Source: Candidatus Geothermocultor quzhuomuensis (GTDB taxonomy: Bacteria > Actinomycetota > Aquicultoria > Geothermocultorales > Geothermocultoraceae). From it: DNA of 39,562 bases. The stretch is taken from positions 1 to 39,562 of the forward strand of contig JACVJC010000020.1 in assembly GCA_015711795.1 (NCBI GenBank), read 5' to 3'. Each line of letters opens with the position of its first letter. Positions within the stretch are counted from its first letter, which is position 1. Made by a program: the position numbers and the translations under genes. The notes under the pieces were generated by a model. The model had not been told where the DNA came from, did not search any database, and saw nothing but the letters and a program-made list of their open reading frames with translations. Positions 32,641 through 39,562 of the stretch are shown one piece after another.

Positions 32641-33699
32641 TTAGTAAGTTATTCGAATAGCTTGAATTCGGTTACTTTCTTTGTCGGCAACAAAGATAAT
32701 GCCATCTGGTCGGACAGCAATGTCGTTAGGGAAATTAAAATAGCCACTTCCTCCTCCCCTTGAGCCAAGACGGGCGAGAAGTTCTCCTTTTGGACTAAAA
32801 ACAAGAATGTTAGAGTTTAAAGCATCGATAACGAGCAAATTCCCTTTTTTGTCAATAGCCATTCCTCGAGGGATGCCAATTCTTTCATTTTTAGTTGGGC
32901 CACCATAGACCCACTTCAATTTATTATCTGGTGTAAAGGCTTGAATACGGAAGTTATTAGTATCAGCAACATAAATTGTTCCATCATTACCTACAGCTAC
33001 ACCATTGGGATGGTCCAGCCAGCCTTCAGCAAAACCAATTTTTTTGCTCCCAATTGACCTTATGTGTTTACCTTCAAGAGAAAATATGGCAACTCTAAAA
33101 CTATCGCAAACATAAACTTTATCTCCTTTGACCGTCAAGTTTTGAGGATGGAGCATAAACTTGTGCCCAAGTAATTCTGGGTCAAAGGCTTTTTCTTTGG
33201 GGAAAAAATCAATGAAATCACCATCGTTATCGAAATACTGGACTCTTCCATTTAACATATCAGCTACATAAATTCTTCCATCTTCGCTTACATCGATGCC
33301 ATAGGGGAAAGCAAATTGGCCTCCTCTCCAAGTTGATTCTATTTCACCAGGAGGATTAGCGACACCAAAGCTCCCAAATTCAAAGATAAACCTTCCTTGC
33401 CAGTCAAAGACGCAAATTCGACGGTTGTTAGTATCGGAGACATAAAGATTTTTATTCTTATCAACTCTAACTGCTAGAGGACGCCAGAAGTAAGGAACAG
33501 GACTTTTGGGCCCAGGCCCATAAATGCTGTAAAGAAATTCAATACCGGGTGGAGGTGTTGCTCCTGGATATCTTTCAACAAAGCCACCTTTCCCCCAGTG
33601 ATGAGTGAAATAGTAGTAGGCAAGAGCTAAAACAATAATGAGGAGGATGATTGCCAGAAGTTTAAAGAGCTTATCGATTTTTTCTTGGAGAGATTTCAT
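32641..33699 (-). CDS. Membrane-anchored NHL-repeat propeller protein
   Basis: A 352-aa protein. A basic N-terminus and one membrane helix (residues 12-31, uncleaved by appearance) are followed by six NHL-type blades (for example VDKNKNLYVSDTNNRRICVF, VSEDGRIYVADMLNGRVQYF and VGNDGTIYVADTNNFRIQAF) that should form a beta-propeller outside the membrane. It starts 10 nt after the heptahaem cytochrome stop without a clear ribosome-binding site, so it is probably translated by coupling. NHL propellers often accompany multihaem cytochromes in anaerobes and serve as binding scaffolds; the partner here is inferred to be the cytochrome. Confidence 0.9.
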   Translation of the reverse strand: MKSLQEKIDKLFKLLAIILLIIVLALAYYYFTHHWGKGGFVERYPGATPPPGIEFLYSIYGPGPKSPVPYFWRPLAVRVDKNKNLYVSDTNNRRICVFDWQGRFIFEFGSFGVANPPGEIESTWRGGQFAFPYGIDVSEDGRIYVADMLNGRVQYFDNDGDFIDFFPKEKAFDPELLGHKFMLHPQNLTVKGDKVYVCDSFRVAIFSLEGKHIRSIGSKKIGFAEGWLDHPNGVAVGNDGTIYVADTNNFRIQAFTPDNKLKWVYGGPTKNERIGIPRGMAIDKKGNLLVIDALNSNILVFSPKGELLARLGSRGGGSGYFNFPNDIAVRPDGIIFVADKESNRIQAIRITY

Positions 33700-33709
33700 T
33701 CAAAAAAGC

Positions 33710-34822
33710 TTAAGGCAATTCTGTAGTGATATGACAATTAAGGCAAAGGTCATCTCCTGTTTCCACAGTCATTCGAGGATTATTAACTTCGTGAGGGAAG
33801 TTGTCAGAATAAGTATAAGTGGTGGTGTAAGGAAGTTCTTCAACATCCATTCTATCATCGTGGCAGTTCATGCAAATAGGAGCGGGAGCACCAGATGTTG
33901 CATTGTAGGCGTGATTGAAAAAGTAAACATCATAATTTGCATCGTATGTATATCGGGGATCGGAAACTGGATTTAACGAACTACCGGTTGCCCAATTATA
34001 AGGAGTTGAGGTATCAACTGGGTGGTCAGGGGCGGAAGAAATCATATCAGCTGCTTTCCAGTGGCAAGTGGCACACCAACCCCCACTATAAGTAGTAGCT
34101 GTATTTCCATTGATATACCTTTTTAAGAGCATATTTTGGTCATATTGTCCATAGGAAACGCCACTTGTCCAATCAGGAGAATCGGGCACGGCTGACTTGG
34201 AGTTAAAGATATCTACAATCTTAGTAGAAGTGCCATGGGGGCTGTGACAGGTGGTGCATTTTAAAGGAGTATCAAGAGGTGGGCTCCCTAATGGTATGGT
34301 GGAGGTAGCCCCAGTTTCAAAGTATTTAGTATTGTTGCTATTGACTCGGTGACGGGAAATAGGCCCTAGTGAGGTGGTAACTAATCCATAAATAATGTTG
34401 TTAGCAGTGTAGTATCCTAAAGTGGGATTATAAGCATCAGCATCAATATCTCCATCAACATTCGCTGAGGTCCCATCGTGGCAAAGAAAGCAAAAATCGG
34501 AAATAGTTTGCTCAGGTAAGAGATTTCTCTGCTCAGCTTCGTGGATATCGTGGCAAATTAAACACCAACCAGCTGCTGTTAAGGTTGTCCCGGTATAAGC
34601 GCTACTAATCATATAATCATGGATACCTTTGGTATAAACATTGCGATCTCCTCCGTGACAAGCAGTACACATTTCAGAGCTATTTAAGTTGTGAGTAGAA
34701 TAAGCTTTAGTTTGTGTTGCAAAATCATGTAAAGCTGCCCAGCTAGTTAGAGGGGAAAACAACAATAAAAGGAGGAAAAAACAAATAAGATAAAAATTTC
34801 GAGCCGCTCGAAATTTTCTCAA
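33710..34822 (-). CDS. Secreted heptahaem c-type cytochrome
   Basis: A 370-aa protein. TTG 34822 is chosen because AAGGAGGT (34827-34834) stands just before it; this gives a clean signal peptide (MRKFRAARNFYLICFFLLLL..., cleavage after SWA near residue 29). Seven CXXCH motifs: CTACH, CLICH, CFLCH, CTTCH, CATCH, CMNCH and CLNCH, several followed by HG/HE as in NrfA/OmcA-type multihaem folds. It is presumably extracytoplasmic electron transfer; no catalytic domain is recognised. First gene of a minus-strand pair with the NHL protein, behind a strong promoter. A perfect hairpin lies in codons 2-10. Confidence 0.92.
   Translation of the reverse strand: MRKFRAARNFYLICFFLLLLLFSPLTSWAALHDFATQTKAYSTHNLNSSEMCTACHGGDRNVYTKGIHDYMISSAYTGTTLTAAGWCLICHDIHEAEQRNLLPEQTISDFCFLCHDGTSANVDGDIDADAYNPTLGYYTANNIIYGLVTTSLGPISRHRVNSNNTKYFETGATSTIPLGSPPLDTPLKCTTCHSPHGTSTKIVDIFNSKSAVPDSPDWTSGVSYGQYDQNMLLKRYINGNTATTYSGGWCATCHWKAADMISSAPDHPVDTSTPYNWATGSSLNPVSDPRYTYDANYDVYFFNHAYNATSGAPAPICMNCHDDRMDVEELPYTTTYTYSDNFPHEVNNPRMTVETGDDLCLNCHITTELP
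34793..34817 (-). promoter_or_regulatory. Perfect 11-bp hairpin in first codons of heptahaem cytochrome
   Basis: AAAATTTCGAG - CCG - CTCGAAATTTT: an uninterrupted 11-bp stem with a 3-nt loop, beginning 2 nt after the TTG start codon. In mRNA it could hinder initiation and so regulate synthesis. Both arms also code for the basic signal-peptide start, so chance cannot be excluded. Confidence 0.45.
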
Positions 34823-34850
34823 TACAACCTCCTTATCAAGATGTAAAAAA

Positions 34851-34879
34851 ATAATACAAAAAGATTTTTTTGAAGTCAA
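34851..34879 (-). promoter_or_regulatory. Promoter of heptahaem cytochrome/NHL operon
   Basis: On the minus strand TTGACT (34879-34874), exactly 17 bp, TATTAT (34856-34851). Predicted start about 20 nt before TTG 34822, with the Shine-Dalgarno site between. Confidence 0.65.
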
Positions 34880-35684: not shown

Positions 35685-35713
35685 TTGACAGGGTTTCTTT
35701 CTTTTGATAAATT
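35685..35713 (+). promoter_or_regulatory. Candidate promoter for giant multihaem protein
   Basis: TTGACA (35685-35690), 17 bp, TAAATT (35708-35713). A leader of 70-90 nt follows with a small stem (ACCC/GGGT around 35744-35757) and no recognised riboswitch. Confidence 0.5.
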
Positions 35714-35793
35714 TGAGATACCTAAACTGAGTGATAGGGGGTCACCCATAAAGGGGTAGGATAAAGAGATTAAAAGAAAGTGAGGATTTCAAA

Positions 35794-38700
35794 CTGAGCT
35801 CAAAGAAATCCGATGGGAAAAACTGGAAAATTCCCCCTATTTATGTTATATTTTTAATTTTTTGTTTTGTTTTTTTAATTGTCTCTATAGTTAGTGCTAA
35901 GATTAGCTCACTTCAAAATTCTTCTCATCTTTCTAGGAGTAAAAATTCCGATTTAGAGAGTTATTTTCTTGATTTAGATGATGAGCTTGATTTTTCCCTT
36001 CCTCATTCTTTAAGTTTTTCTTCCTTAGGTCTTTCTCGGGGAGGTAATACCCTAGAGAGGACTGGTGTTGAAAGTAGTTCTTCTAGGGGAGTAAGTAATA
36101 ATGGAGGAAAAGGGAATAGCAATGAGGCAATTTTTCAAAATGAAGGAGCTAATTCGGGAATTTCTCAAGAGTCTGAAGAAAGAATAACTAGAGGAGACTA
36201 TGCATTAGAACTTGCTAACAAACTCAAACTTTCTCCTTACTACCCCCAATCTCCAACTTTTCTAGATGTTCACCCAAAAGACTATTTTTATCCCTTTATT
36301 GAAGCTTTAGTTAAAGCAGGCGTCATTTACCCTGAAGACTATAAAGTCGCGGATAAGGCTATAAAAGAAGGGGAAAATGCCCAAGATGGCCTTTATGTTT
36401 TTAGACCCTACTTTGCTATTACTGAAGGGGAGAAAGCTTTATGGGAGGAAAGAGCAAGACAAATTTTTACCCCCATAATTTTATCTAAGTCTCCAGAAGA
36501 TGGAGCAACTGGAGTTTCCATTAATGTTATAGTTACTGTTACCTTTTCCCAGGAGATGGATCCTCAAACTATTAATAATTCTACCTTTAAGCTTTACCAG
36601 GGAGGTAATTTAGTCTCTTCCACGGTAACTTATGATAACGCTACAAAGACAGTTTACTTAAAACCTGACACAAACCTAGCTTATGGAACTGACTATCTCG
36701 CTTGTGTGAGTGAAAGTGTTAAAAGCATTCAAGGATTTAATTTAGGTATTGATCCCTCATGGAGCTTTAAGACAGAAGCAAAGCCAGATACCACCCCACC
36801 GGAAACTACTCTTGAAACTAACCCTTTAACCCCTGATGGGGAAAACGGCTGGTTTATTACCTCTCCTTTCATCTCTTTAACCTCAAATGAACCGGGCATA
36901 ACTTATTACAAGCTTGATTTAGAATCATCATATAATATATATTCTTCTCCCTTTAGTTTTCCCGAAGGAATTCACACTATATATTATTATTCAGTTGACT
37001 TAGCTGGAAATACTGAAGGGGTAAAAGAAGTTCAATTTAAAGTTGACTTAACTGACCCCACATCTTCAATTACTTCTCCAATCGAAGGGGAAGAGATTGC
37101 CTCTTCTCCTTATGAAATTAAAGGAACCTCAACTGATGCTAACTTTTCCTCTTATACTCTAGAATATGCCACAGCTGATTCTCCTCATCTCTGGAATCTC
37201 ATTACAACTTCTCAAGAGAAGAAGGAAGATGACATTTTAGCAAGCTGGGATATGAGTTATTTAAATGGAATTTATTCCTTAAGACTAACTACCTTTGATG
37301 ATTCAGGAAGGAAAAGCACCTTTATTGTTAATGATTTAAAGATTGACAATGGTTTGCCATCTCCTCCTTTAACTTTTCAAGTATATGCTGGTAATTTAGA
37401 AAATAATCTTTCTTGGTCTCCCTCACCTGAATGGGATGTCACTTCTTATAATATCTATCGCTCTACTGCTCAGGATGGAGAATATCAAATAATAGCCAAT
37501 GTTTTAGGGACTTCTTATTCTGACCCCATTCCTGAAAGTAAAATTGGCACTTACTGGTACAAAGTATCTGCTGTTGATATCTTTGGGAATGAAAGCGCTT
37601 TATCAGAAGAAAAAGCTAATACTTTAGTTCATATTGTTAAAGAATTTTCACCTGATACTGAAACGAAAGTAATTGCCTCCAATGGCAAACTGACCTTTAC
37701 TGTTCCTGCTGGTTCATTATCATGCCCTCAAACAATTGAAATTAAAGAAGAAGTAAGTGCCCCACAAGCTTCTGGCTTTACTCCCATATCTTCACCCTTT
37801 GACCTTTCTCCATCAGGTCTTACCTTTGATTCCAGCAATCCAGCCCTTTTAACTATTCCCTACAACCTTTACTTCACTGACCCCGATGTTGCTCAAATAG
37901 TTGAAAAAAATTCGGCTGTCTGGTACTGGAACGAAGCAACCTTAGATTGGGAAAGAATAGAATCTACAGTTGATACAACAGCAAACACTGTAACTGGAAA
38001 GATAACTCACTTTACCTATTACTGGTCAGGAGCGGTTAGTAATCCCCATGGAAGTGAAAGTGTGATGATTGACAAGTGTGATGTTTGTCATTTACCTAAA
38101 GGTGATGTAACAACTTGGAAGGGAAGAGATGTTTGTTATCAATGTCATGGAAATACTACCTCTACAGCTCCAGCTGCTGGCTCAATGGGTCCCAATATTC
38201 AGGGAGAGTTGATTGACTGTGCTAATCAGTCATTTACCACTTCTTCTATGAGCCGCCATGATGTTCCAGAACTTAGCCTTTACTGCAGTGATTGTCACTA
38301 TGCCCATGGAAATGTCAGTGAACATACTGATCTTTTGAGGGTTTGGAGTCCAACAGCATCAGTCTTTGTGAAAACTGGTGGATATTTTTATTCTTATAAT
38401 TCTTCTCCCTTAGGCAATAGCTTTTGCTACGCTTGCCATGGAACTTATTACAACAAACGCATTAACCGTTATCGCTATTCTGGTTACTATACTTTAACTA
38501 AGGGAGATCATCAAACTAACTATCAAGGTTCTATCCATGATATTGGTTTGCCTAATCCTACCACAACTATTGATAATGCTACTGGAACAATATCAACTGA
38601 AATTAAATGTTTAAACTGCCATCAAGAGCACGGCTCAGCTAGTGCTACTGTTTTACTGAGAGGAAACAATATTACAGGAAACAATAATACTTTTTGTGCT

Positions 38701-39562
38701 TCCTGCCACTTAACCTTGAGCAATAACTATCCAACACCAACCATTATAACTAGCGGTAACTATAAAAAGGGTTATCCTGTTACGGGAACATATCCTGGAA
38801 CAGGCACCTATGATGTTTCACCTCACAATACTTCAACTTTGATTTATCCTGGCTCAGGCTATGCTGGTGGAGACTGTAAGAACTGCCACAATCCTCATGG
38901 AACATCTAACTTATTTGATATGCTTGTTTCAACCTTCACTTCCCCTGAAGGTTATGCCTCTAACAACTGTGAGAATGCTTATACTCTCTGTTTTGTTTGC
39001 CATGATGGAAGTCCCGCTTCAAATATCCAGCAATACTATCAAGACTCAGCTTCCCAAAATGAAAGAGTCGGACACAGGATGAAGCAAGAATCAACAATTA
39101 TAGGTAATGCTGCTAGTGCTACTTATTCTCAAAATTTAAAGATGCCATGCTATGTCTGTCACAATCCTCATGAAAATACTTACAAGATGATAAACAAAGA
39201 GCTTGCTAATGAATATGAAGCTGCCTCAGGTACTGTAAATAGTGAGAGAAAATTCTGTCTAGCATGCCATAGGGAAAATGATTCAACAAGGCCAACACCT
39301 TCTGTTCCCACTCGCTATCTTGGTTATGAGATTAAAGTGCTTCCTCCAAGAAGCGGTCATTATCAGTCAGATTCAGTTGCTAACACACCTTGCTCACAAT
39401 GTCATGGTGGTGGGAGTGGCATTGTTGCAGCTCACAAGCCACTACCTCGTCTTTCTGAGGGTGGTCAGGCTTGCTCAACTTGCCATTCCTCAATCTATAC
39501 CCGAATGACCTCAACAACAACTGGTTACCATCACTTAATGACAACTGATACTGCTGACCCAA
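35794..39562 (+). CDS. Giant S-layer/Ig-module multihaem cytochrome (3' end cut by window)
   Basis: One open frame runs from 35752 to the window end (over 1,250 codons). A signal/membrane segment (YVIFLIFCFVFLIVSIVSA, about 35836-35892) is followed by a Ser/Gly-rich linker, an SLH-like region (ITRGDYALELANKL...FLDVHPKDYFYPFIEALVKAG...FRP, 36190-36450), a Big_5-like domain (36470-36780), two further Ig-like domains, an FN3-type domain (37360-37600) and a ZU5-like stretch (to about 38030). Twelve CXXCH motifs then follow (CDVCH, CYQCH, CSDCH, CYACH, CLNCH, CASCH, CKNCH, CFVCH, CYVCH, CLACH, CSQCH, CSTCH) with more likely beyond the edge. It is probably a cell-surface electron conduit. The frame has no ATG, GTG or TTG before the signal segment: CTG 35794 (GTGAGG 8 nt before) is used here. 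ATG 35813 would fit only if one A is missing from an A5 run. Confidence 0.85.
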   Translation, partial: MSSKKSDGKNWKIPPIYVIFLIFCFVFLIVSIVSAKISSLQNSSHLSRSKNSDLESYFLDLDDELDFSLPHSLSFSSLGLSRGGNTLERTGVESSSSRGVSNNGGKGNSNEAIFQNEGANSGISQESEERITRGDYALELANKLKLSPYYPQSPTFLDVHPKDYFYPFIEALVKAGVIYPEDYKVADKAIKEGENAQDGLYVFRPYFAITEGEKALWEERARQIFTPIILSKSPEDGATGVSINVIVTVTFSQEMDPQTINNSTFKLYQGGNLVSSTVTYDNATKTVYLKPDTNLAYGTDYLACVSESVKSIQGFNLGIDPSWSFKTEAKPDTTPPETTLETNPLTPDGENGWFITSPFISLTSNEPGITYYKLDLESSYNIYSSPFSFPEGIHTIYYYSVDLAGNTEGVKEVQFKVDLTDPTSSITSPIEGEEIASSPYEIKGTSTDANFSSYTLEYATADSPHLWNLITTSQEKKEDDILASWDMSYLNGIYSLRLTTFDDSGRKSTFIVNDLKIDNGLPSPPLTFQVYAGNLENNLSWSPSPEWDVTSYNIYRSTAQDGEYQIIANVLGTSYSDPIPESKIGTYWYKVSAVDIFGNESALSEEKANTLVHIVKEFSPDTETKVIASNGKLTFTVPAGSLSCPQTIEIKEEVSAPQASGFTPISSPFDLSPSGLTFDSSNPALLTIPYNLYFTDPDVAQIVEKNSAVWYWNEATLDWERIESTVDTTANTVTGKITHFTYYWSGAVSNPHGSESVMIDKCDVCHLPKGDVTTWKGRDVCYQCHGNTTSTAPAAGSMGPNIQGELIDCANQSFTTSSMSRHDVPELSLYCSDCHYAHGNVSEHTDLLRVWSPTASVFVKTGGYFYSYNSSPLGNSFCYACHGTYYNKRINRYRYSGYYTLTKGDHQTNYQGSIHDIGLPNPTTTIDNATGTISTEIKCLNCHQEHGSASATVLLRGNNITGNNNTFCASCHLTLSNNYPTPTIITSGNYKKGYPVTGTYPGTGTYDVSPHNTSTLIYPGSGYAGGDCKNCHNPHGTSNLFDMLVSTFTSPEGYASNNCENAYTLCFVCHDGSPASNIQQYYQDSASQNERVGHRMKQESTIIGNAASATYSQNLKMPCYVCHNPHENTYKMINKELANEYEAASGTVNSERKFCLACHRENDSTRPTPSVPTRYLGYEIKVLPPRSGHYQSDSVANTPCSQCHGGGSGIVAAHKPLPRLSEGGQACSTCHSSIYTRMTSTTTGYHHLMTTDTADP

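Follow-up and report, generated by a model that had tools for sequence, protein, structure and literature searches.

A multihaem cytochrome gene without a conventional start codon, and its candidate CTG start, at a contig end of Candidatus Geothermocultor quzhuomuensis

The stretch of DNA analysed here (the window) is the whole of one contig, C20, with a length of 39,562 bases, and belongs to a 1.76-Mb MAG of 38 contigs. The right-hand end of the window is occupied by a single stop-free frame of 1270 codons, which opens at position 35752 and runs to the last base at 39562. The frame leaves the window because the contig ends at that point. The gene is genuine, and its product is a multihaem c-type cytochrome, new in sequence and of a kind already known. 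On the convergent side of the neighbourhood, at 32641-34879 (reverse strand), a gene for an NHL-repeat protein adjoins that of a further multihaem cytochrome, in which seven CXXCH motifs are present.

The domains recognized in the translated frame, and the repeat in which it is cut, are situated as follows:

36259-36330, forward strand: weak SLH half-match, probably no working SLH domain (15-17 bits against a cut-off of 20.8)
36472-36774, forward strand: Big_5 bacterial Ig-like domain (E 2.4e-17, over the cut-off)
36901-37044, forward strand: OmpL47-type Ig-like domain (NF047446, 51.2 bits against a cut-off of 40)
37387-37578, forward strand: FN3-like domain (phmmer match to PDB 3mpc_A, E 0.00076; no Pfam fn3 match)
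38077-39486, forward strand: twelve CXXCH haem-binding motifs (motif count and profiles)
39431-39562, forward strand: beginning of a repeat block that contig C21 also carries (the last 103 bases are identical; the contig breaks inside the block)

The haem region matches the Paired_CXXCH_1, Cytochrome_C7, Cytochrom_c3_2 and MtrC/MtrF II-IV profiles over their cut-offs, and the motif count agrees with an earlier note on this DNA, which had given at least 12 haem motifs. The Ig/FN3 spacers described there are also present. The S-layer-binding region of the same description is not borne out. The SLH match spans 23 of the 44 profile positions, corresponding to one half-domain, whereas SLH domains usually occur in sets of three. 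A profile search of the genome found no SLH domain over the cut-off (the best match reached 17.0 bits against 20.8), and a search for CsaB, the pyruvyl transferase responsible for the SLH ligand, gave no genomic hit at E <= 0.001. In an alignment-free structure prediction, the SLH-like and Big_5 region together had a mean pLDDT of 50.6, with the SLH-like part below 50. The wall-binding domain that this genome does use is CWB2, with 49 matches, which are C-terminal in several large surface proteins. It is possible that a CWB2 anchor lies in the missing C terminus of the C20 cytochrome. A 4206-aa ORF on contig C19 (C19:15-12632, forward strand) carries CWB2 domains close to its C-terminal end.

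In its final 132 bases the window matches a block of 584 bases, of which two copies, 99.3% alike, lie within a 2915-aa multihaem ORF of contig C21 (C21:2-8746, reverse strand). This ORF has 30 haem motifs and is itself cut at its contig end. Since the tail of the window lies inside the shared repeat, the 3' cut of the C20 gene is an assembly break. Joining C20 to another contig was considered and rejected, because the tail enters a block found twice in C21 and its continuation is ambiguous. The right ends of C21 and C16 carry multihaem fragments with open 5' ends, which are possible continuations of C20; no overlap proves either.

The 5' part of the frame contains no ATG, GTG or TTG ahead of the signal segment, as the earlier note had observed. 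The earliest such codon is ATG 36556. It had also been claimed that ordinary gene finding misses the gene; instead, the gene would be called 254 codons late, from ATG 36556, as a partial gene of 1002 aa. A 423-kb sample contained 174 ORFs of 250 aa or more, and this 5' stretch was the longest among them to lack a start codon; the frame still ranked first for a late start in larger samples of 763 kb and, subsequently, about 1.12 Mb of the 1.76 Mb. The chance of 268 codons free of start codons is about 0.6%, given the amino acids of the gene and the codon usage of the genome, or about 2% if the codon usage is taken from the remainder of the gene. Coding statistics favour the frame from about 35814, rising steadily as far as the contig end, and reject both alternative frames. 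Between 35794 and 35813 the frame is not favoured (-1.3 bits), which counts against a start at CTG 35794, and the segment 35752-35793 is not coding-like (-2.0 bits).

The features from which translation of this frame might be directed are:

35685-35713, forward strand: predicted sigma-70 promoter, TTGACA - 17 nt - TAAATT with an extended -10 TG (10 of 12 matches; consensus match only)
35750-35763, forward strand: AAAGGGG followed by ATA 35761-35763, an alternative start (Shine-Dalgarno energy -7.4, very short spacing, log-odds 0.83)
35780-35785, forward strand: Shine-Dalgarno-like GTGAGG, 8 nt upstream of CTG 35794 (duplex energy -6.3)
35794-35796, forward strand: proposed CTG start codon (ribosome-binding-site score and comparison of start-less genes)
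35794-35898, forward strand: predicted signal peptide or signal anchor of 35 residues (translation and hydropathy up to 3.04, by eye)
35813-35822, forward strand: out-of-frame ATG, then GG and a run of five A residues (A5, 35818-35822), the slip alternative (Shine-Dalgarno energy -1.9, log-odds -2.53)

The promoter is the best forward-strand candidate of the region and is followed by a short leader after 35713. A search of this leader for a riboswitch or other RNA gave nothing over chance, and no repeat copy of it was found elsewhere in the genome. Ribosome-binding sites were given a score that combines spacing with the energy of pairing to the 16S tail and that was trained on 178 genes with unambiguous starts. 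The earlier note had placed a rare start at CTG 35794 or ATA 35761, or alternatively a slip in the A5 run after ATG 35813, and all four elements lie where it put them. CTG 35794 has the better site, with a position-aware log-odds of 2.25 against a median of 1.66 for starts in the genome, and this half of the rare-start proposal holds up. The ATA half is weaker, its site being too close to the codon. There is no early in-frame ATG, GTG or TTG, and a ribosome-binding site is correctly spaced from another codon, as is characteristic of a non-canonical start. Translated from CTG 35794, with the first residue taken as Met, the product begins LSSKKSDGKNWKIPPIYVIFLIFCFVFLIVSIVSA-K. It has a KK-rich beginning, a hydrophobic core and V-S-A before K, which by eye is a normal export signal, and the cytochrome is probably exported.

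Start-less genes elsewhere in the genome provide a further comparison. Seven were examined in the 1.12-Mb sample, and an in-frame CTG with a good ribosome-binding site lies near the start in three of them, as against 2 of 178 control genes, an excess that rests on seven genes picked after the fact. Besides the C20 cytochrome, the three include a lipoprotein (C1:114685-115125, reverse strand), which has no canonical start codon over its whole length and has CTG behind a good Shine-Dalgarno sequence. The third is an NHL-repeat protein (C21:19399-20502, reverse strand), with no early canonical start and an in-frame CTG likewise behind a good Shine-Dalgarno sequence. In two other cases the codon is ATC. 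One is a methyltransferase (C4:83772-84407, reverse strand), where ATC follows GGAGG (Shine-Dalgarno energy -11.3) and no canonical start precedes the core. The other is hflX, encoding the ribosome-splitting GTPase (C1:108797-109954, reverse strand), which is without ATG, GTG or TTG ahead of its conserved N terminus.

The hflX genes of relatives have ATC, ATA or ATT behind a strong Shine-Dalgarno sequence in many genomes and in several families of the class. The non-AUG start of hflX is found also in one family outside the class; other families have ATG. No earlier description of a non-AUG start for hflX emerged from a literature search, and the pattern is reminiscent of infC, whose rare start is conserved. 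The start-less genes with CTG or ATC, hflX in the relatives and the precedents in staphylococci, considered together, make non-AUG initiation in this clade credible. CUG is an uncommon start codon in bacteria, with weak pairing at the first position (PMC11497404). A search with the N-terminal 240 residues gave no paralogue in the genome and no convincing orthologue among 35 relatives from the class. ATA 35761 likewise has a Shine-Dalgarno-like site, which counts against CTG 35794. On balance, CTG 35794 would best explain the missing start of the cytochrome gene, with a probability of about 0.58.

The main rival is that ATG 35813 is the true start and that the A5 run is one base short, representing either a phase-variable or decaying gene in its OFF state, or a site at which the ribosome or RNA polymerase slips. 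One extra A yields a compact signal peptide starting MGKNWKIPPIY. Two other exported genes of the genome share this arrangement and have better ribosome-binding sites, and 5' poly(A) tracts that switch the frame are documented, with A6 and A7 in a Listeria surface-protein gene (PMC2831843). However, the A5 run of C20 is shorter than these tracts, and the ribosome-binding site of ATG 35813 is among the worst 5% of starts in the genome. Furthermore, 13 of the 178 normal starts (about 7%) have an out-of-frame ATG with A5 nearby by chance. The poor site of the ATG and the A5 run thus make a slip the weaker explanation for C20, and an unlikely one, yet it is kept as the chief competitor of the CTG start.

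A slip could also be apparent, arising from a wrong base count in the A5 run. Many contig ends overlap another end by exactly 127 bases, and the assembly therefore looks like a de Bruijn graph of short reads with k=127, in which a miscall of A5 is unlikely. A frameshift-aware coding model applied to 1.12 Mb gave 135 frame changes, most of which were ordinary gene overlaps. Filtering left 16, most of which can also be accounted for by overlaps with weak sites; few are real shifts. An assembly rich in frameshifts in general was rejected on this basis, internal frameshifts being rare in the 1.12 Mb. Possible frameshifts or pseudogenes were noted individually at C9:16478 (reverse strand), a poly-G shift; at C28:7704, a shifted anchor protein; and at the right end of C11 and at C12:19333-20029, which carry split or broken CWB2 genes. 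An ABC permease-like frame at C1:41931-42632 (reverse strand) has one in-frame TGA soon after its ATG.

The two genes with the same pattern are a lipoprotein and a subtilase. The lipoprotein (C5:88155-88634, forward strand) has a near-perfect Shine-Dalgarno sequence (-11.3) and an ATG followed by A6, with a textbook lipoprotein-signal frame one A off. The subtilase (C29:4615-6789, reverse strand) has three CWB2 repeats and begins ATG GCACT A7, one A short, with a Shine-Dalgarno energy of -6.4; an in-frame CTG is its alternative start. It is conceivable, although rather doubtful, that the C20 cytochrome, the C29 subtilase and the C5 lipoprotein form an exported set switched by A-runs after the ATG, each now one A short. 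If true, this would mean phase-variable electron-transfer surfaces.

A start at ATA 35761, giving a signal region of 46 residues, is improbable. The AAAGGGG just upstream pairs well with the 16S tail, and hflX of relatives apparently starts with ATA in some cases, but the spacing is too short and the segment between ATA and CTG 35794 is not coding-like. Finally, there is very little chance that the frame is a fragment or pseudogene with its 5' end lost and the rest out of use: it has no canonical start, and the genome does contain CWB2 pseudogenes (C12:19333-20029, for example, has stops), but the 1270 codons are stop-free and score strongly as coding sequence, all twelve haem motifs are intact and a promoter is in place, which argues against decay.

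Assuming that CTG 35794 is the start, the following account can be proposed. Transcription of the cytochrome gene would be driven by its own promoter, which lies immediately upstream, and translation would begin at the non-AUG codon CTG 35794, selected by the Shine-Dalgarno sequence GTGAGG. The weak CTG start would probably hold expression low. The first 35 residues would act as the signal peptide, and the Ig/FN3 stalk would display, outside the membrane, at least 12 haems in a C-terminal chain, from which, once the motifs are loaded with haem, electrons could be handed on. The wall-spanning conduit envisaged in the earlier note is plausible as a putative role of the protein.

Standard gene calling would drop the 254-codon N terminus of this large surface cytochrome, including its export signal, and the protein would therefore be mis-described as cytoplasmic or partial. 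In this Actinobacteria-like clade, several genes appear to begin at non-AUG codons, hflX being the conserved example.

The closest counterpart of the C20 cytochrome within the genome is the 30-motif ORF of C21, which has 72% DNA identity with it over the haem region 38695-39562, in addition to the shared repeat block. The two differ in the N-terminal half, where the C21 protein has a TolB-like propeller, recognized by eye, and fn3 by Pfam. Carboxydothermus ferrireducens and Thermincola potens are known to have multihaem surface cytochromes that serve extracellular electron transfer, with 4-22 haem motifs each (PMC7829351). The common ground is an exported multihaem c-type cytochrome in a Gram-positive-type envelope, export being predicted in the case of C20. 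The C20 protein is distinguished by its fused Big_5, OmpL47-type and FN3-like spacers and its non-canonical start, and no orthologue of it was found.

The 5' poly(A) phase-variable genes (PMC2831843) resemble the C20 gene in having an A-run just behind the ATG and a long frame out of step. In C20, which is known here from one assembly, the run is A5 rather than A6 or A7, and the ribosome-binding site is weak. Conserved non-canonical starts have been described for infC (AUU/AUA), ccpN (AUA) and cvfC1 (AUU); the staphylococcal AUA and AUU starts, which have a strong Shine-Dalgarno sequence, are conserved and work at about 10-30% of the efficiency of AUG (PMC13009471). The likeness to C20 is that a strong or extended Shine-Dalgarno sequence makes up for a start codon that is weak and reduces expression. 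In the C20 gene, however, the proposed codon is CTG and the product would be an exported structural protein.
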